IMG/VR virus record: IMGVR_UViG_3300044713_000004
Coordinates: 1 to 44,356 of that record
Direction: 5' to 3' (one strand)
Length of the DNA stretch: 44,356 bases
DNA from: a virus
In this document: positions 25,540 through 33,844 of the stretch, one piece after another
Position numbering within the stretch: position 1 is the stretch's first letter
Layout: every line of letters starts with the position of its first letter
The notes under the pieces: model-generated
Database searches by the model: none
The model's input: only the letters and a program-made list of their open reading frames with translations
Told to the model about the DNA's origin: nothing
Position numbers and translations under genes: made by a program

Positions 25540-26292
25540 ATGACTAAAAAGGTGATGATCGTTCCCGATCTTCAGGTCCCCTACCACTCAGTCAGCTTCG
25601 TAAAGAAGCTGATCCAGGTGGCCAAGGACTGGCAGCCTGACACCATCTGTTTCATCGGGGATGTCTTGGATTTTCCGGAGGTGAGCAGGTGGACCAAGAG
25701 TGGTCGTGGTGAGTTCGAGCCGACGCTTCAGGCGTCGCTCGACAAGGGCATCACCATCCTTGGACAGTTCCGATTGGCCGCCCCGAAGGCGGACATTCGG
25801 TACAAGATGGGAAACCATGACGAGCGACTGGAGAAGTACATCAATGACTACGCCCCCGCCCTGCGAAGCCTGCGGACATCCGATATCGGATACCAGCTCG
25901 GACTGGACCAGCTTGAGATCAAAATCGAGCGAGACCCGTTCCTTCTGACACCGGACGTGTTGGCTGTCCATGGACATGAGCGAGCGTACAGCTCAGTTCT
26001 GGGCCGCTATGAGGGGGAGCGCATCAAGCAGTATGGTCTCTCTGTCGTTTCCGGCCACACGCACACCCCAGTCCTGATCACCACCGCTACAGGCTTCGGC
26101 CTCAAGCAGAAACACCGCTTCGGGATGAACGTGGGCCACGGTATGGATCCCAAGAAGTGCGGATACACCAAGGACGGATACCTGAACTGGTGCCAGGGGT
26201 TCGGTGTGATTGAAGTGGTCAACGGTGTCTCGTATCCCACCCTTGTCACTGCCCCGGCCGGTCACTTCATGTTCATGGGAGAGAAGTACTGA
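25540..26292 (+). CDS. Calcineurin-like metallophosphoesterase
   Basis: The product has 250 residues from ATG 25540. Metal-binding motifs are in order: VPDLQVPY (Asp10; the family usually has D-x-H, here D-L-Q), GDVLDF (40-45), GNHDER (91-96), VHGHE (143-147) and GHTHTP (172-177). Enzymes of this fold hydrolyse phosphodiesters, including nucleic acids and nucleotides. No ribosome site precedes the ATG, but a -10 box ends 6 bases before it, so translation is probably leaderless. A longer frame starting at 25210 was rejected because the added part crosses hairpins and has no protein character. It is coupled to the sigma factor gene (TGATG). Confidence 0.87.
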   Translation: MTKKVMIVPDLQVPYHSVSFVKKLIQVAKDWQPDTICFIGDVLDFPEVSRWTKSGRGEFEPTLQASLDKGITILGQFRLAAPKADIRYKMGNHDERLEKYINDYAPALRSLRTSDIGYQLGLDQLEIKIERDPFLLTPDVLAVHGHERAYSSVLGRYEGERIKQYGLSVVSGHTHTPVLITTATGFGLKQKHRFGMNVGHGMDPKKCGYTKDGYLNWCQGFGVIEVVNGVSYPTLVTAPAGHFMFMGEKY

Positions 26293-26978
26293 TGACTGAC
26301 GACCTGTTCGCGTTCTACAACGAGCACATCACCAGTGCAGCCCGCGCCATTGGGCGCGGGTACTACAACTACACCTCGGTTCCTGACATTGAGCAGGAGC
26401 TCTGGATGGGGCTGTACAAGCAGCCCGCACTGTTCCGCAAGTACAAGGACCAGTGGCCCGAGTCTCGTGGCTTCCTGGTGTCATTGCTCAAGCGGAAGGC
26501 CTACACATACTGCAACCGAGAGCGTGACATCGCCCTCGGGATCACTCCAGAGAAGCGTGAGTCGTCCTACTCGGTGGCTGTGGTGCGTGAGCTGCTGCCT
26601 GACGTGTTCGACTACCAAGACTGGCAGTCGTTCGCTCAGAAGACGGACAGCCAGGCCAAGGCCAAGCGTCTTGAGGCCACGTCTGACCGCCTCGCCATGC
26701 TCATCGACGTCAAGACTGCCGTCGACAAGCTTGACTCTCGCAACTACAGCATCGTCATTGCGGTGTTCAAGCACCAGTACGACGATGCTCAGCTTGCCGA
26801 GATGCTGGAGATTTCGACTGGATCGGTGAAGACCACCATCAATCGGGCACTCAATGCTCTCGTCAAGATCCTGTCACCCGATGTGGCCGCAGCCGATCGG
26901 GAGTATGTGGGCACTCGCAAGGTGAAGTCCAACGCTGCCTCGCGGGCAGAGGTCTCCAACGCCTACGAAGGTGCATGA
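26292..26978 (+). CDS. Sigma-70-family-like RNA polymerase sigma factor
   Basis: The product has 228 residues. Residues 10-75 resemble sigma region 2 (HITSAARAIGRGYYNYTSV, DIEQELWMGLYKQP, FLVSLLKRKAYTYCNRER). Residues 150-195 resemble region 4 with a helix-turn-helix (IVIAVFKHQYDDAQLAEMLE, then ISTGSVKTTINRALNAL). It likely redirects host RNA polymerase to phage promoters, perhaps the late ones, since the phage has no RNA polymerase. The C-terminus (ADREYVGTRKVKSNAAS) is basic. It is in an operon with the phosphoesterase and followed by a coupled gene (ATGA). Confidence 0.82.
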   Translation: MTDDLFAFYNEHITSAARAIGRGYYNYTSVPDIEQELWMGLYKQPALFRKYKDQWPESRGFLVSLLKRKAYTYCNRERDIALGITPEKRESSYSVAVVRELLPDVFDYQDWQSFAQKTDSQAKAKRLEATSDRLAMLIDVKTAVDKLDSRNYSIVIAVFKHQYDDAQLAEMLEISTGSVKTTINRALNALVKILSPDVAAADREYVGTRKVKSNAASRAEVSNAYEGA

Positions 26979-29126: not shown

Positions 29127-29146
29127 CGACAGGCATAAGCCTGTCG
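29127..29146 (-). other. Intergenic hairpin (start-associated type)
   Basis: CGACAGGC-ATAA-GCCTGTCG is a perfect 8-bp stem between the stop at 29160 and the start at 29036. It is one of the series of hairpins placed between genes of this array. Confidence 0.7.
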
Positions 29147-29159
29147 ATTCCATTTCACC

Positions 29160-29537
29160 CTACAGTGAGTCTCCAAACCGCTCGATCAGGTCAGCGATCT
29201 GGTCGAAAGTGAGACCAGCATCGTCGTTCAGGTTGGTCAGATACGGAGCGTGATCAGTATCGCGCTCGTTGGGCATTCCGGGCAGCTCGCCGTACTGATC
29301 ACTGAGTTCAGCCCAGTTGAGAATGGGGTTCTGGGGCAGGTCGTAGTTGCCGTAGTAACCGACGCGGCCAGAGTCCTCGCTCAGGTGCTCACGCTCATAC
29401 TGGTGATCATCCATGTACAGCTCACAGAGCACGCCGAAGCAGCAGAACCGGTTCTCCCTGTTCAGACTGTACGCGCCCTGCTGGTACTGGCCGGAGCGCA
29501 GTGCCAGGACCCAACGGTCCTGGATGTCCTTGTTCAT
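29160..29537 (-). CDS. Conserved-type accessory protein with CCFGVLC motif
   Basis: The product has 125 residues. The ATG is preceded by the array module AAGGGAGAGAGAC. The N-terminus (DIQDRWVLALRSGQYQQGAY, then RENRFCCFGVLCELY) is a pattern I recall in many phage and bacterial hypothetical proteins; the double Cys and following Cys may bind metal. The rest is acidic (NLNDDAGLTFDQIADLIERF). The function is unknown. Confidence 0.8.
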   Translation of the reverse strand: MNKDIQDRWVLALRSGQYQQGAYSLNRENRFCCFGVLCELYMDDHQYEREHLSEDSGRVGYYGNYDLPQNPILNWAELSDQYGELPGMPNERDTDHAPYLTNLNDDAGLTFDQIADLIERFGDSL

Positions 29538-29579
29538 GTCTCTCTCCCTTGTTCAATCCCTGCTGATGCAAGGGCACGA

Positions 29580-29601
29580 TGCACCATCAAAGGATGGTGC
29601 A
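29580..29601 (-). other. Intergenic hairpin (start-associated type)
   Basis: TGCACCATC-AAAG-GATGGTGCA is a perfect 9-bp stem between the stop at 29615 and the AAGGGAGAGAGAC module of the gene starting at 29537. Confidence 0.75.
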
Positions 29602-29614
29602 CCATACTCAGGCG

Positions 29615-30313
29615 TCAGATTTCCCCCATGACTGAAACCCAAGGGCTAGTCAGGATGTCAAACTGCTCCGGGGCAACCAGGTCGCGGACGACCAGGGCCC
29701 CAGCGGCATTCCAAGCGGCATTCCAAGCGGCATTCCAAGCGGCATTCCAAGCGGCATCCCGAGTGGCATCCCAAGCGGCATCCCAAGCGGCATCCCAAGC
29801 GGCATCCCGAGCGGCATTCCAAGCGGCATTCCGAGCGGCATTCCGAGCGGCATTCCGAGCGGCATTCCGAGCGGCATTCCAAGCGGCATCCCGAGCGGCA
29901 TTCCGAGCGGCATACCCAGCGGCATACCCAGCGGCATTCCAAGCGGCATACAGTTGGTTGACCTCTTGCAAAGTGAGCATCTTGCACTTTTCGATCAGGC
30001 ACACGACCGCTTCCCCATTGGGACCAAGTGCTTCCCATGCGGGTAGCTCACGAACCACGGTCAGCGTGCAGAATCCACGCTTGTTGTTCTCTTCGGAGAC
30101 CGGCTCACCATCGACCTCAAATAGCCTGCACGGCCACGATCCGCCAATGAGCGTGTCCGCCTTACTAGTGGACGCGTGATAGACGTCAGGGGAGCAGCAG
30201 GGGCCGCCAGGCAGCTTGGGGAGCTGCTCACCAGTGCCGCAGATCGCGGCATAGTCAACAGTTCCCGAGTAGAAGTCTTTCCCATCGGGGCGCACTGCCT
30301 TGTAGAAGATCAT
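29615..30313 (-). CDS. Accessory protein with 20-fold tetrapeptide repeat
   Basis: The product has 232 residues. The ATG is preceded by GGGAGAGAGAT. Residues 1-120 are globular: [20 protein letters not shown], later [16 protein letters not shown] and [17 protein letters not shown], similar to phage proteins of the DUF7666-like type as I recall them. Residues 124-204 are a perfect tetrapeptide series Ala-Ala-X-Y with X mostly Trp or Arg and Y Asn or Asp, which would form a long amphipathic helix or solenoid. A 28-residue tail follows. The repeat probably changes length by slippage. The function is unknown. Confidence 0.8.
29703..29942. repeat. 20 tandem copies of a 12-bp unit
   Basis: Units of the type GCGGCATTCCAA, with C/T, A/G and occasional TACCC changes, follow one another without a break and keep the reading frame of the minus-strand gene 29615-30313. 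The unit encodes Ala-Ala-(Trp/Arg/Gly)-(Asn/Asp/Tyr) on the minus strand. It is not a CRISPR array: there are no spacers. Confidence 0.95.
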
Positions 30314-30367
30314 ATCTCTCTCCCAGTATTACCTGACGAGCTCGTCAGCACAGGTACTCACCTGTGG

Positions 30368-30387
30368 ACGCGCCTCAATGGGCGCGT
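30368..30387 (-). other. Intergenic hairpin (start-associated type)
   Basis: ACGCGCC-TCAATG-GGCGCGT, a perfect 7-bp stem, lies between the stop at 30398 and the GGGAGAGAGAT module of the gene starting at 30313. Confidence 0.7.
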
Positions 30388-30397
30388 TTCGCTCTGG

Positions 30398-30583
30398 TCA
30401 GTTGATCAGTGATTGGTGGGCTACGGCCATAATGGCTGCGATGTAAGTTGCGGCCTCATTGCCAGTCATCTTGTCGAAACGGCCAAGCTGGCGGCGTTCT
30501 ATCAGCCAATTCCTGATCTCGCCGAGTGCTTCGGTCCGTGCGGAACTCTCCAGCTGATCGAGAGCCTCGTCAATGTGGTCCAT
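30398..30583 (-). CDS. Small helical accessory protein
   Basis: The product has 61 residues, almost entirely helical (IDEALDQLESSARTEALGEI, then LIERRQLGRFDKMT, NEAATYIAAIMAVAHQ). The ATG shares one base with the previous stop. It could be a small dimeric regulator. Nothing is recognised. Confidence 0.7.
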   Translation of the reverse strand: MDHIDEALDQLESSARTEALGEIRNWLIERRQLGRFDKMTGNEAATYIAAIMAVAHQSLIN

Positions 30584-30801
30584 CAGAACTCCACCTCAAG
30601 AATGTCACCGGGCTGGAACGTGTACGTGGTGCCGTTGTCCAGAGTGATCCGGACATTGTGGAACATGGTGGTGCGGGTCTCGATGACCCGCAACCGTGTT
30701 CCCATCTCAAGGTCTTCCTTGCGGTGTCTGGCCTTGAAGTTCGGGTCAATGGCGATGATGTCGCCAGGACTGACCATAACGGCCTGCACTTCCTGAATCA
30801 T
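30583..30801 (-). CDS. Small beta-barrel-like accessory protein
   Basis: The product has 72 residues. The ATG is preceded by AGGGAGAGAGATC. It alternates beta strands with glycine turns (MVSPGDIIAIDPNF, then GTRLRVIETRT, DNGTTYTFQPGDILEVEF), the look of a small SH3- or KOW-like barrel. The function is unknown. Confidence 0.75.
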   Translation of the reverse strand: MIQEVQAVMVSPGDIIAIDPNFKARHRKEDLEMGTRLRVIETRTTMFHNVRITLDNGTTYTFQPGDILEVEF

Positions 30802-30843
30802 GATCTCTCTCCCTGTCTAGCATCGAATTGTGATGCCAGGAAA

Positions 30844-30866
30844 GTGCTCAGCTTGTGGCTGAGCAC
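30844..30866 (-). other. Intergenic hairpin (start-associated type)
   Basis: GTGCTCAGC-TTGTG-GCTGAGCAC, a perfect 9-bp stem, lies between the stop at 30876 and the AGGGAGAGAGATC module of the gene starting at 30801. Confidence 0.75.
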
Positions 30867-30875
30867 CAACCTTGG

Positions 30876-31070
30876 TCACACTTCATTGACCCGCTTAGGG
30901 TCGTAGTGCTTGTCGGCGTTCTCGTAGACGTCCAGGCGGTCGAACTTGCCCGCATGACGCAGACGAGCTTGAATGAACGCCGTCTTAGGGTCCTGAGCCT
31001 CTTCCAGGTACATGTACGTACGGCCGGTCTCTTCGCCCTTGAGTTCAACCATGTAGCGGTGGAAGCACAT
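30876..31070 (-). CDS. Small accessory protein
   Basis: The product has 64 residues. The ATG overlaps the previous stop (TAATG), with GGAGAGAAG upstream. The sequence HRYMVELKGEETGRTYMYLE, then AFIQARLRHAGKFDRLDVYE, is alpha/beta and charged. No family is recognised. A frame on the same strand 28 bases downstream was rejected as a shadow. Confidence 0.7.
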   Translation of the reverse strand: MCFHRYMVELKGEETGRTYMYLEEAQDPKTAFIQARLRHAGKFDRLDVYENADKHYDPKRVNEV

Positions 31071-31234
31071 TACTTCTCTCCTGCCTTGATCAGACGGATA
31101 AGTTCACGGATGCAGCCCTGCTGCGCCTCCATGAGATTGATGCGCTCCTCATGGGTCGTCTTGCCATGCTTGAGTGTGTACGTGATCTGTTCGATCTCGT
31201 ACACCAGCTCATCACGACGCGTCAGCTTGCTCAC
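31070..31234 (-). CDS. Small coiled-coil-like accessory protein
   Basis: The product has 54 residues from GTG 31234 overlapping the previous stop (GTGA). It is charged and helical (LTRRDELVYEIEQITYTLKH, then HEERINLMEAQQGCIREL). It could be a small dimeric adaptor. Nothing is recognised. Confidence 0.7.
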   Translation of the reverse strand: MSKLTRRDELVYEIEQITYTLKHGKTTHEERINLMEAQQGCIRELIRLIKAGEK

Positions 31235-31245
31235 TCGCAGTCCTC
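31228..31245. repeat. 18-bp direct repeat, copy 1 (flanks gene 31231-31470)
   Basis: TGCTCACTCGCAGTCCTC is identical to 31464-31481. On the minus strand it covers the Glu-Asp-Cys-Glu codons, the stop TGA and the overlapping GTGAGCA start junction. Confidence 0.9.
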
Positions 31246-31470
31246 ACTTTCCGTCAATCCGCCATGCTTACAGAACGTAGGTACCTTGCAGTGCCTGCAT
31301 TCCCCCCTCCCATTCAGGCCAAGGGAACGCAGGATATTAACGCGCATCCTACGCTCTGTATACTCGATCGTACTGACGCGACGCTTCGCAAGGAACAGCG
31401 TGAGCCTTTTCTGATCTTCCGACGGAAGGGAGAAGTAGAAATCGGTATACCACTCGTTAAGCCTGCTCAC
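31231..31470 (-). CDS. Small zinc-finger-like protein, possible gene cassette
   Basis: The product has 79 residues, starting at GTG overlapping the previous stop (GTGA). The C-terminus has CRHC and FCKHGG (about 58-70), a likely zinc site. The N-terminus is helical and basic (QKRLTLFLAKRRVSTIEYTE). The gene is bounded by perfect 18-bp direct repeats that copy the stop/start junction, so its last four residues equal those of the upstream protein. This suggests insertion or duplication by recombination at junction sequences. Confidence 0.72.
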   Translation of the reverse strand: MSRLNEWYTDFYFSLPSEDQKRLTLFLAKRRVSTIEYTERRMRVNILRSLGLNGRGECRHCKVPTFCKHGGLTESEDCE

Positions 31471-31481
31471 TCGCAGTCCTC
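31464..31481. repeat. 18-bp direct repeat, copy 2
   Basis: Identical to 31228-31245. It covers the end of the gene at 31467-31622 and the start of the gene ending at 31231. Confidence 0.9.
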
Positions 31482-31622
31482 CGCGTACGGGCTTTCTTCG
31501 AAAGCCAGACCCCTCGCCTGCTGTGCAGGCGTGGAGTCGTCATAGCCCTCATGGCAGAAGCAGTCCTCGGAGCACATGTACTCTTCGTCCGTCACGTAAT
31601 CGTGCTGGATCTCGTCAGACAT
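31467..31622 (-). CDS. Small acidic Cys-containing accessory protein
   Basis: The product has 51 residues from ATG 31622, overlapping the end of the upstream gene by 8 bases. It is very acidic, with CSEDCFCHEG at about 17-26 as a probable metal site, and ends EDCE. Small acidic phage proteins often block host enzymes, but there is no direct evidence for that here. Confidence 0.68.
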   Translation of the reverse strand: MSDEIQHDYVTDEEYMCSEDCFCHEGYDDSTPAQQARGLAFEESPYAEDCE

Positions 31623-31785
31623 TGCGTGCCTCCTGAATCATCGAGAGGACAGCTTCGTCTGCCTCTTCGATCAGGTCACAGTGCAAGCACAAACCCACGT
31701 CGTCGCAGTAGCAGTTACCCTCACATGCCGGACAGTTATAAAGCGTACCGGGGTTGTGAGGATAATCCACATGCTCCAATTCCAT
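31615..31785 (-). CDS. Small zinc-ribbon-like accessory protein
   Basis: The product has 56 residues from ATG 31785, preceded by AAGGGAGAGAGAT. Cysteines lie in NCPACEGNCYCDDVGLCLHC (about 16-35): CPAC, CYC and CLHC make a compact metal-binding knot. The C-terminus is an acidic helix. No family is recognised. A longer frame to 31869 was rejected because it runs through the hairpin module. Confidence 0.75.
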   Translation of the reverse strand: MELEHVDYPHNPGTLYNCPACEGNCYCDDVGLCLHCDLIEEADEAVLSMIQEARNV

Positions 31786-31808
31786 ATCTCTCTCCCTTGT
31801 TACTGGCA

Positions 31809-31854
31809 GATGCTTACTGCGTAAGCATCGTCCGTTGGTTTCGCAGAAACCAAC
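31809..31854. repeat. Two-hairpin module, copy A
   Basis: GATGCTTAC-TGC-GTAAGCATC is followed after GTCC by GTTGGTTTC-GCA-GAAACCAAC. Both stems are perfect 9-bp inverted repeats. Copy B at 31892-31937 is the same apart from loops and one compensated stem pair. The module lies between the stop at 31956 and the start at 31785. Confidence 0.85.
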
Positions 31855-31855
31855 T

Positions 31856-31964
31856 GGCTGAATAGCCAAGAGGCCGCACAGCCCGAAGGCAGACGCTTAC
31901 GCAGTAAGCGTCGTCCGTTGGTTTCCGTGAAACCAACAGGCTGTGCAACCGATGGTCATTCAGA
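31856..31964 (-). other. CTGAATAGCCA-family structured element, copy 1 (enlarged loop)
   Basis: The outer arms are CTGAATAGCCA and TGGTCATTCAG, and the inner stem is GCACAGCC (31876-31883) with GGCTGTGC (31939-31946). The loop is expanded to 55 bases and holds the second two-hairpin module. The element overlaps the TGA stop of the gene at 31956. Related elements lie at 33275 and 33606. Confidence 0.8.
31892..31937. repeat. Two-hairpin module, copy B
   Basis: GACGCTTAC-GCA-GTAAGCGTC, then GTTGGTTTC-CGT-GAAACCAAC. Relative to copy A, a T-A pair has become C-G with both strands changed (811/827 against 894/910), and the loops differ. Confidence 0.85.
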
Positions 31965-32501
31965 GTCTTCCTCGTCGTCGTACTCGCAGCAGTAGTCGCA
32001 GGTGCAGTACAGCTCAATCACGCCATTGAGCAGCGAGATGCTCTTGGGGTCTACACCTTCGGACAACTGGATCAGCGCTTCAAGCGCTGTCGTGTTGTTC
32101 TCGGCGTAGTGGAACAGCTTGCAGGCTTCTGTGTGGGACAAGCCAAGGAAGTCTGCCCCGATCTCTTCCCAATTAACTTCATTGGGACACTTGCTGCTCC
32201 CCCAAGGGGCTATCATCATGCTGCTGATCCAATTAAATTCACTGCCCTCGGTCATATTGCCAAGACGCTGCTTCCATCCCATGCGCATTGCCGCGAAACC
32301 GGCAAGGCACAAGGTGGTGCCACAGGTGGTGTTGGCGCTGTCGATATCTTCCAGACCGAACGTCAAAGAATCAACGCCCAGCTTGGAGAAAGCTTCCAGA
32401 GTGAGATCCCGGTCTCGAAAGACCCACACACTCATGTCGAACGCCTCACGGTGCCGCTGGACATCCTGCACCAGCAGTTTGGCATTCTCGATGTTGACCA
32501 T
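31956..32501 (-). CDS. Accessory protein of unknown function with acidic Cys-rich tail
   Basis: The product has 181 residues from ATG 32501, preceded by AAGGGAGAGAGAT. It has a helical N-terminus (VNIENAKLLVQDVQRHREAF), then TTCGTTLCLAGFAAMRMGWK and FLGLSHTEACKLFHYAENNT. The CGT-CLAG-A pattern is one I recall from phage hypothetical proteins. The C-terminus is CTCDYCCEYDDEED, four Cys in acidic context. The function is unknown. Its stop lies in the structured element at 31856-31964. Confidence 0.77.
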   Translation of the reverse strand: MVNIENAKLLVQDVQRHREAFDMSVWVFRDRDLTLEAFSKLGVDSLTFGLEDIDSANTTCGTTLCLAGFAAMRMGWKQRLGNMTEGSEFNWISSMMIAPWGSSKCPNEVNWEEIGADFLGLSHTEACKLFHYAENNTTALEALIQLSEGVDPKSISLLNGVIELYCTCDYCCEYDDEEDSE

Positions 32502-32529
32502 ATCTCTCTCCCTTGATGGACTCATCAGT

Positions 32530-32566
32530 GCGGGCATAACCCGCAGACGCACGCCTTAGCGTGCGT
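32530..32566 (-). other. Two adjacent intergenic hairpins
   Basis: GCGGG-CATAA-CCCGC (32530-32544) is followed by ACGCACGC-CTTA-GCGTGCGT (32547-32566). Both lie between the stop at 32574 and the AAGGGAGAGAGAT module before 32501. Confidence 0.75.
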
Positions 32567-32573
32567 TTCGTCC

Positions 32574-32711
32574 TCACACTTCCATTGTCCATGTAGCCGG
32601 AAAGCCGTTCTCTTCCAGCGACTGGACCAGTTCCTCAGCGTCATACCAGGTGTCCACCAGCAGAGAACCCGCCGGGGACTGGTCTGCATACCACCACAAG
32701 ACCTTGTACAT
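32574..32711 (-). CDS. Very small accessory protein
   Basis: The product has 45 residues from ATG 32711 overlapping the previous stop (TGATG), with GAAGGAAG upstream. It reads YKVLWWYADQSPAGSLLVDT, WYDAEELVQSLEENGFPATW, a compact alpha/beta microprotein. The function is unknown. Confidence 0.65.
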   Translation of the reverse strand: MYKVLWWYADQSPAGSLLVDTWYDAEELVQSLEENGFPATWTMEV

Positions 32712-32860
32712 CAGTCTTCCTTCTCGACCCTGAGGTCATCGGCATCCAGGGACATCATGTCCTCAAGTTCCTCCATGGAGTCCATGGCGTCCCTGAGGTC
32801 TGCGATACCACGGACGACGGTGAAGTCGCGTCCTGCACGGTGCAATACGATCCTGAACAT
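32711..32860 (-). CDS. Very small acidic accessory protein
   Basis: The product has 49 residues from ATG 32860 overlapping the previous stop (TGATG). The N-terminus is basic (FRIVLHRAGRDFTVVRG), and the C-terminus is strongly acidic and helical (SMEELEDMMSLDADDLRVEK). It is coupled with both neighbours. Nothing is recognised. Confidence 0.65.
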   Translation of the reverse strand: MFRIVLHRAGRDFTVVRGIADLRDAMDSMEELEDMMSLDADDLRVEKED

Positions 32861-33147
32861 CAGTAGTTCTCCCGCTCTGCATCAAGCCGGGCAGCGTGAA
32901 GCTCCACCATGTAGCGGACGACGGCAAGCCATACAGTCTGACTGCCGGTCTTGTAGTGCGAGTGGAGTTCTTTAGCTACGTCTCGCGCACGGGCTGACGC
33001 CTGGTCGGAGTAGAATGCACGCGACCTGTCTAGGTAGCTCTCATCGTGCGAACGGCTCAGAAACATGGCCGCAACTATGATCCTGTTGTGCGCAATCGGG
33101 CAGTCGCTCTCAAGCGGAATGCCATCGGTGAAGACGTTGGCAGACAT
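32860..33147 (-). CDS. Small helical accessory protein
   Basis: The product has 95 residues from ATG 33147. A GTG two codons earlier is possible. The sequence is helical (HNRIIVAAMFLSRSHDESYL, ASARARDVAKELHSHYKTG, then WLAVVRYMVELHAARLDAER). No motif is recognised. Confidence 0.7.
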   Translation of the reverse strand: MSANVFTDGIPLESDCPIAHNRIIVAAMFLSRSHDESYLDRSRAFYSDQASARARDVAKELHSHYKTGSQTVWLAVVRYMVELHAARLDAERENY

Positions 33148-33149
33148 GG

Positions 33150-33257
33150 TCACACCGCCTTGTTGTAGTGGCGGACCAGCTTGATCAAACCGTCCACGCC
33201 GAAGCGCAGCGCGGTAAGGAGCGCACTAAGCGCTCCCAACATGATCAGAATTCCCAT
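33150..33257 (-). CDS. Putative microprotein with one hydrophobic helix
   Basis: The product has 35 residues. The ATG is preceded by AAGGGAGAGAGATC, the same module as other genes of the array, which supports translation. The sequence GILIMLGALSALLTALRFGV, then DGLIKLVRHYNKAV, has one possible membrane helix and a basic end. This could be a membrane-active microprotein. Confidence 0.6.
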   Translation of the reverse strand: MGILIMLGALSALLTALRFGVDGLIKLVRHYNKAV

Positions 33258-33274
33258 GATCTCTCTCCCTTGTA

Positions 33275-33332
33275 GGCTGAATAGCCAAGAGGCCGCACGG
33301 CCTACGGGCCGTGCAACCGATGGTCATTCAGA
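33275..33332 (-). other. CTGAATAGCCA-family structured element, copy 2
   Basis: Outer arms CTGAATAGCCA and TGGTCATTCAG enclose the inner stem GCACGGCC-TACG-GGCCGTGC (33295-33314). It overlaps the stop of the gene at 33328 and precedes the AAGGGAGAGAGATC of the gene at 33257. Confidence 0.85.
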
Positions 33333-33588
33333 TGTCACTGCCAAGCGTGCTGAGACGCTTGAACTCACGTACACTCACGTTGACAGACACCCAAGCGGTG
33401 CCCTCGCACATCCGGGCACCGAAGTGGCGGTCCCCGTCACCCAAGTAGCGGTACAGCGGATCGTAACTCTCGCAACCCTCGTTAATGAACTTGGGCGCGT
33501 GAGAGCCATTGACTCCCATCACGATCCACCCGCGACGCGGGTTGTCGTTGACATCGTTGGTGCAGTTGACTCGCACGATGTGAAGCAT
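33328..33588 (-). CDS. Small accessory protein of unknown function
   Basis: The product has 86 residues. The ATG is preceded by AAGGGAGAGAGATC. It is alpha/beta (LHIVRVNCTNDVNDNPRRGW, IVMGVNGSHAPKFINEGCES, then GTAWVSVNVSVREFKRLSTL). Three Cys are present without a clear metal pattern. The function is not recognised. It is the first confident gene of the array. Confidence 0.72.
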   Translation of the reverse strand: MLHIVRVNCTNDVNDNPRRGWIVMGVNGSHAPKFINEGCESYDPLYRYLGDGDRHFGARMCEGTAWVSVNVSVREFKRLSTLGSDI

Positions 33589-33605
33589 GATCTCTCTCCC
33601 TTATA

Positions 33606-33660
33606 GGCTGAATAGCCAATGGAACGCACGCTCAAGGCGTGCGCTCGATGGTCATTCAGA
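33606..33660 (-). other. CTGAATAGCCA-family structured element, copy 3
   Basis: Outer arms CTGAATAGCCA (33608-33618) and TGGTCATTCAG (33649-33659) enclose the inner stem CGCACGC-TCAAG-GCGTGCG (33625-33643). It lies just upstream of the AAGGGAGAGAGATC of the gene at 33588. Confidence 0.85.
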
Positions 33661-33844
33661 ATTCTCTCCCATCGTCACCGCAGCGCCGTAAGCGCTGCGA
33701 TCCGGAATGAGAGCAGATGATGACCAGCCATCCGGGATCAACCGGGAGAGGCGCGTACCGAACAATCGTCGTCCGTGCTTCACGGGTCGCCAGCCATCTG
33801 CTGCCCTCAAACCTATTGCTTAGGGAAAGAGAGAGATACTCCAC
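33656..33844 (-). CDS. Doubtful small gene
   Basis: The frame has 62 codons from GTG 33844. The stop TGA lies in structured element 3, as for real genes of the array. But the frame has no ribosome site and includes a perfect CGCAGCGC-CGTAA-GCGCTGCG hairpin (33679-33699) near its end, and the start region reads the antisense of a GAGAGAGAT module. It may be a decayed gene or noncoding. Confidence 0.25.
   Translation of the reverse strand: MEYLSLSLSNRFEGSRWLATREARTTIVRYAPLPVDPGWLVIICSHSGSQRLRRCGDDGREF

Follow-up and report, generated by a model that had tools for sequence, protein, structure and literature searches.

Why do seven genes in the early region of one phage genome carry almost the same bases before their start codons, and why does each follow a folded gap? 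The genes lie on the minus strand of IMG/VR virus record IMGVR_UViG_3300044713_000004 (positions 1 to 44,356; this whole stretch of 44,356 bases is called the window below), whose early genes run leftward, on the minus strand. The original prediction, made from the letters of the window, likened their arrangement to the start-associated sequences (SAS) and upstream inverted repeats (ESAS) of cluster K mycobacteriophages. Here, we report that the shared bases form a start module that behaves as an SAS and that the gaps hold folded RNAs of more than one class, two of them type II hammerhead ribozymes with intact cores. The explanation that we hold to be fairly probable, from comparison of related sequences, is that processing at each gap divides a polycistronic early transcript into messenger RNAs (mRNAs) that are translated separately, and that the combination of processing element and SAS makes the genes exchangeable.

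The terminase of the window shares 65% identity with the terminases of Streptomyces phages Dennebes, Manuel, Immanuel3, Stella, and FlowerPower, which belong to the Beephvirinae, actinobacteriophage cluster BF (PMC9753666). The window phage is of the Streptomyces type, and the comparison set comprised 80 related contigs, from these phages and from metagenomic ones (given L numbers where they must be told apart). At the right end of the relatives' genomes, just upstream of terminase on the circular map, lie leftward small genes including those for ArdA and the terminase small subunit; the seven-gene array of the window has the equivalent location. Sites were gathered with GGGAGAGA, so that altered modules are undercounted, and gave a nonredundant set of 213 leftward gaps; the pseudoknot descriptor described below was run on 203 slots. 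No transfer RNA (tRNA) genes were found in the window record, whereas cluster BF isolates carry 15 to 20 each.

All seven predicted starts are present on the minus strand, each consisting of AAGGGAGAGA, one to four further bases, and ATG. An eighth copy, without a gene, had been overlooked. Lengths of the proteins are in amino acids (aa).

33593..33602, minus strand: start module (core AAGGGAGAGA, tail GATC) of gene 33588-33328 (86 aa)
33262..33271, minus strand: start module of gene 33257-33150 (35 aa, small hydrophobic protein)
32505..32514, minus strand: start module of gene 32501-31959 (181 aa, phrog_889 family)
31789..31798, minus strand: start module of gene 31785-31615 (56 aa)
30806..30815, minus strand: start module CAGGGAGAGA of gene 30801-30583 (72 aa)
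30317..30326, minus strand: start module CTGGGAGAGA of gene 30313-29615 (232 aa, phrog_8332 family)
29541..29550, minus strand: start module of gene 29537-29160 (125 aa, phrog_18067 family)
33663..33672, minus strand: orphan start module ATGGGAGAGA, geneless, with the next structured gap immediately after it; the close relative L009 has two genes here

The pattern GGGAGAGAGA-N0-4-ATG occurs seven times on the minus strand of the window and not at all on the opposite strand, and the backwards word gives no match. By itself, the purine run is only mildly enriched (28 copies with at most two mismatches versus 18 expected); it is therefore the position before a start that counts. Among the relatives, the module core stands at 213 nonredundant leftward sites versus 9 rightward, and GGGAGAGA lies just before a start at 314 of 349 sites on the leftward strand versus 15 of 56 on the other, with the reversed word at starts in 0 of 12 and 1 of 15 cases on the two strands. 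The prediction that the module is concentrated at starts thus held. The start codon is ATG at 202 of 222 module starts. In four annotated isolates, 9 to 10 of the 10 core bases are matched before 8 to 9 of the 14 to 17 early genes per phage, the remaining genes mostly matching 5 to 7, and nearly all module sites fall within the early leftward genes. A single module outside the early region stands before the same late gene near holin in each (Dennebes 26816, Immanuel3 27403, Manuel 27047, and Stella 27529). As had been predicted, most early genes that lack a module overlap or abut the preceding gene; one exception is ArdA, which has an altered version of the module.

The extra bases are conserved beyond what a Shine-Dalgarno sequence needs. 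The tail of 16S ribosomal RNA (rRNA) was calculated to pair with AAGGGAG over 7 bp and not with the AGA that follows, and a purer Shine-Dalgarno sequence would pair better (-22.9 kcal/mol versus -13.6 kcal/mol for the module); yet where GGGAG stands 4 to 11 nucleotides (nt) before ATG, AGA comes next in 224 of 303 leftward (early-strand) cases versus 8 of 99 rightward. The bases outside GGGAG therefore do not vary freely in the relatives, in line with the original prediction, and we infer that they are read by something beyond the 16S tail. The proposed module of 12 to 14 bases survives only in its core: AAGGGAGAGA is general across relatives, whereas the GAT/GATC tail is peculiar to the lineage of the window. 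The tail between core and ATG differs among phages and is alike within a contig (similarity of 0.497 versus 0.321 when shuffled, maximum 0.362), which argues for something particular to each phage or for the spread of one copy inside a genome.

By these sequence properties, namely conservation beyond Shine-Dalgarno need, placement at early genes preceded by gaps, and presence across the subfamily, the module behaves like an SAS. It resembles the SAS of cluster K mycobacteriophages and cluster EF Microbacterium phages (PMC3203893, PMC7302621) in being a repeated, overconserved sequence at the ribosome-binding position, in one orientation and at nonstructural genes; in both cases, a structured or conserved stretch lies upstream and the genes have relatively large gaps in front of them. 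The sequences themselves are unrelated, AAGGGAGAGA here versus GGGATAGGAGCCC or GGGAAAGGACCCC there. Searched in the window, the 13-bp cluster K consensus GGGATAGGAGCCC (at most two mismatches) gave two chance-level matches, neither at a module start, and the cluster EF consensus GGGAAAGGACCCC gave one, likewise chance-level and away from module starts.

What fills the gaps is RNA structure. The 213 gaps have a median folding z score of -3.9 against dinucleotide shuffles, compared with -0.55 inside the downstream genes; no sequence is shared between slots, and pairing is kept by compensating changes. The hairpins of the original prediction are thus real, but they are pieces of larger folds and not whole elements: those at 30368-30387 and 32530-32566 lie within hammerheads, which had gone unrecognized, and the others lie within pseudoknots.

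Type II hammerheads occupy two of the seven slots in the window, and most other gaps form a pseudoknot. Both hammerheads have CUGANGA, GAAA, A15.1-U16.1, H17, and three stems with stem II open, at zero mismatches. A strict hammerhead-II descriptor found 19 unique copies in the examined contigs and none in 7.65 Mb of shuffled sequence. Seven stand in a row in contig L041, five of them 40 to 43 nt before a module, and in most hammerhead slots the predicted cut falls 30 to 49 nt before the module. When all of IMG/VR was searched by pattern for a hammerhead end and then the module, seven contigs matched, and several of these belong to this family. From its geometry, a type II hammerhead is predicted to leave a hairpin at both new ends.

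The pseudoknot has a regular layout: the 5' strand of helix P1 (5 to 8 bases), a junction, a short helix P2, a GC-rich hairpin P3, a hairpin P4 (3 to 6 bp), a few bases, and the module. The loop of P4, just before the module, pairs back with P1. At least six P1 pairs form in 99 of 203 gaps, compared with a mean of 24 (maximum 31) when 5' strands are swapped between contigs. The covariation set of 28 sequences was selected on the junction sequence, without regard to P1 pairing. In it, 99.3% of P1 cells are paired, each of the five pairs has changed on both of its sides, and double-change cells number 26 versus 6.5 when shuffled, while slid structures collapse. The strict descriptor was set after examples had been viewed, and we therefore place weight on the swapped-strand and slid-structure controls; a permissive descriptor was dropped as too loose (154 of 203 versus 121 in the swapped control). 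In scans at permissive E-value that covered the window region plus five related loci, no Rfam 15 family corresponded to the pseudoknot. The slots of the window are as follows.

33606..33659, minus strand: stop-anchored pseudoknot slot, P1 CTGAATG/loop TATTCA, P4 GGC/GCC, GC-rich inner hairpin
33275..33331, minus strand: stop-anchored pseudoknot slot of the same fold with another inner hairpin, beginning at the stop codon of gene 33588-33328; identical sequence in L009 at 3730
32518..32573, minus strand: type II hammerhead ribozyme, intergenic, predicted cut after C 32546, 34 nt before the module (RF02276, E=0.0053, 30.7 bits)
31854..31963, minus strand: pseudoknot slot CTGAATGACCA ... TTGGCTATTCAGCC, the inner hairpin holding a double-hairpin insert
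30817..30881, minus strand: pseudoknot-type slot GTGTGACCA ... GGCATCACA, with a longer 3' hairpin
30338..30394, minus strand: type II hammerhead ribozyme, CUGACGA core, predicted cut after C 30367, 43 nt before the module (RF02276, E=0.0015, 32.8 bits)
29558..29618, minus strand: weaker pseudoknot-type slot, CTGACGC versus loop GCATCAG, P4 CCCT/AGGG, 6 of 7 pairs, by eye

The 56-base double hairpin is duplicated, one copy lying within the pseudoknot inner hairpin (31888-31943) and the other after the slot (31805-31860).

A third class occurs in relatives only, a tRNA-like fold with the acceptor stem stacked on the T arm and a TTCGANN/TTCAANN loop, without an anticodon arm. There are seven such elements, of which four closely precede a module (L039, L042, L043, and L127), versus one match in 1.59 Mb of shuffled sequence; ARAGORN called no tRNA in the ten sources scanned, including L039, L042, and L127. 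The classes substitute for one another before homologous genes. Contigs L005 and L039, 97.4% identical over 7.25 kb, have a hammerhead and a pseudoknot, respectively, between the same flanking genes and after the same stop codon. The 125-aa gene follows a pseudoknot in the window and its L127 homolog (35% identity) follows a hammerhead, while for the 181-aa gene the window, L005, and L041 have a hammerhead, L039 and L042 a pseudoknot, and L127, whose homolog is 34% identical, a tRNA-like fold.

The hammerheads recall those of prophages, type II elements with a CUGANGA/GAAA/GUC core and open stem II that lie between genes, several in a row, and for which the same role, the cutting of polycistronic phage RNA, has been proposed (PMC3088659; RF02276). 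Prophage hammerheads flanking single genes cut in vitro and in E. coli, and Perreault and colleagues proposed mRNA processing (PMC3088659). Ours differ in standing at a fixed short distance, mostly 34 to 45 nt, before a standard start module and in that their slots are taken by a pseudoknot or tRNA-like fold in relatives. Pistol, hatchet, and twister-sister were found by reasoning that new RNAs share places with hammerheads (PMC10085705), and the pseudoknot shares the genomic slots of hammerheads as those newly found structured RNAs did. Because it shares slots with hammerheads and tRNA-like folds, both of them places where RNA is cut, the pseudoknot is likely to have a role in RNA cutting. 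The pistol ribozyme has a hairpin loop fully used in a pseudoknot, as does the stop-anchored pseudoknot; unlike pistol, the latter has another order of elements and no conserved catalytic core that we could find. That it is a new class of self-cleaving ribozyme, and that the subfamily operon thus bears several unrelated and interchangeable RNA-cutting devices before a standard start module, is possible, but we regard this larger claim as doubtful. In T7, RNase III sites between genes are structured intercistronic elements that shorten the phage polycistron into mRNAs; the elements of the window family differ in that part of them are predicted to be self-cleaving or tRNA-like, and they are not known to depend on RNase III.

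The alternative that survives best is that the slots act in translation, a ribosome terminating on P1 opening the pseudoknot and so setting the use of the downstream module, or the fold blocking read-through or reinitiation. The geometry suits it: the P1 strand overlaps the stop codon of the preceding gene in 66 of 99 cases, compared with 4 of 99 for a window 25 nt upstream, and in predicted folds the module lies unpaired a few bases beyond the 3' hairpin. However, hammerheads and tRNA-like folds, which lack such geometry, occupy the same slots before homologous genes, and we judge a purely translational role unlikely.

Next in order is the view that module and upstream structure are DNA sites as in cluster K, that is, promoters or operators for a phage or host regulator joined to a strong ribosome-binding site. 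The ESAS of cluster K are inverted repeats of 17 bp in which the changes give no support to RNA pairing (PMC3203893), and putative SigA promoters have been reported in them (PMC11373665); the window phage family also encodes a sigma-like factor (window 26292-26978), so that a promoter not of the sigma-70 type is conceivable. The cluster K repeats are one shared sequence, whereas the folds of the window family vary in sequence, covary, and have no sigma-70-type promoter (TTGAC-N-TAnnnT, 0 of 213 gaps). Scans of the array region for terminators and sigma-70 promoters gave nothing clearly above shuffles. As the gaps share pairing only, with many double changes, and as two of them are hammerheads, DNA sites seem a highly improbable explanation. 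Of the SAS/ESAS-like design originally proposed, then, the SAS half stands by its behavior, while the half drawn from cluster K ESAS fails on varied sequence, covarying pairs, missing promoters, and the two hammerheads.

The borders of the units bear on a further possibility, that module and folds serve mainly to promote gene exchange, with any effect on expression secondary. Homology between the window and the near-identical L009 breaks off precisely at the module at 33600 and starts again at 33801; in between, L009 has two genes and the window has the orphan module 33672-33663 and then the next folded gap. Across 12 such breaks in comparisons of close relatives, 10 of the 24 upstream ends of homologous blocks fall no more than 25 nt upstream of a module, compared with 1.1 expected (maximum 4 of 300), although shared module sequence could extend alignments by a few bases. 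The suggestion that the module takes part in gene shuffling finds support in the L009 exchange and in this coincidence of breakpoints with modules, and the gene units, or cassettes, look exchangeable at module borders. Separately, L009 lacks exactly one gene at window 32860-33146, apparently lost between two ATGT words at neighboring starts. Both the coincident block ends and the exact exchange with its orphan module would suit borders made for recombination, and shared short sequences are natural crossover points. But a recombination site needs shared sequence, and the folds differ by slot with pairing alone kept; RNA-specific elements such as hammerheads would be senseless as DNA sites, and recombination as the main function is still less probable than DNA sites. 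Least probable of all is the ordinary pattern of terminator hairpins and a merely good Shine-Dalgarno sequence: AAGGGAG does pair with the 16S tail over 7 bp and Streptomyces terminators often lack U-tracts, but T5 runs follow the folds in 0 of 213 gaps (last 80 nt; T4 in 4), ten successive terminators without promoters between them would silence the operon, AGA is fixed beyond the pairing region, and hammerheads are not terminators.

Under the processing explanation, the leftward early region would be one long operon of cassettes, each made of one small gene, or a few that overlap, together with a folded RNA slot and the start module that comes next. RNA of the slot would cut the transcript between genes or let the host cut it: hammerheads would be self-cutting, tRNA-like folds would serve as substrates of RNase P, and pseudoknots may do the same job by another route. 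Each product would be a short mRNA, folded at its 3' end and opening with a short leader that contains AAGGGAGAGA, a standard ribosome-loading site independent of the upstream gene. Genes would be lost, gained, and swapped at cassette borders because slot and module free their expression from that of neighbors.

Several observations weigh against this explanation. The window hammerheads score 30.7 and 32.8 bits against an Rfam gathering cutoff of 37; hammerheads of the family as a whole score 27 to 35 bits, likewise below it, and the open stem II pairs of the window copies deviate from the Rfam model. The pseudoknot between loop I and tail that is typical of the class reaches at least four pairs in 7 of 19 hammerheads, versus 4.0 with permuted tails (P=0.064). 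No hammerhead was found in the early region of the cluster BF isolates examined, and most members must therefore rely on the pseudoknot. The strict pseudoknot descriptor misses 84 of 203 slots, and no strongly conserved unpaired core common to the pseudoknot subclasses was found, unlike in known ribozymes. Finally, the border test is based on just 12 breakpoints.

Some further features were noted in and around the array. A leader element complementary to the start module, TATCTCTCTCTTTCCC, lies on the minus strand at 33820..33840, about 160 nt before the orphan module. The leaders of 21 of 44 relatives have CTCTYTCCY, complementary to the module, before the first module, and reordered control patterns occur in none or one; the element could pair with modules or be part of the early promoter region. 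Several relatives have, on the early (minus) strand ahead of their first early gene, a fragment resembling the 5' domain of bacterial 16S rRNA (about positions 106 to 347, helices 11 and 12 best kept). The four best copies (71 to 85 bits) are L046:8361-8503, L054:8780-8888, L047:232-364, and L115 (phage Stella):45525-45633, with weaker ones in L106, L034, L068, and L093; a TTGACA promoter follows just after the fragment in L046 and L054. No such fragment was found in the window; where present, it may serve as a decoy or mimic RNA. Gene 30313-29615 contains about 19 copies of a 12-base repeat (GGAATGCCGCTC-like; window 29687-29960, minus strand) that encodes a short amino acid repeat, and Propionibacterium phage E6 has a stretch similar to it. 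A search for relatives of the 181-aa protein returned the near-identical contig alone.

Among the ten papers listed by an open-license text search, none joined hammerheads with Streptomyces phages or actinobacteriophages, and published accounts of cluster BF phages Abafar and FlowerPower mention neither SAS nor ribozymes. Four features are new here: coupling with a start module, the class of pseudoknots, replacement of one class by another, and the cassette borders. To our knowledge, SAS/ESAS have had no assigned function since 2011, and no function has been proven for phage hammerhead arrays; since the start module and predicted RNA-cutting elements are joined in culturable Streptomyces phages, both questions of function can be put to the test in laboratory strains. 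A pseudoknot that cut itself would be a new ribozyme class. If cleavage occurs as proposed, these would be the plug-and-play genes of a compact phage, and this would explain the fast turnover of its small early genes.

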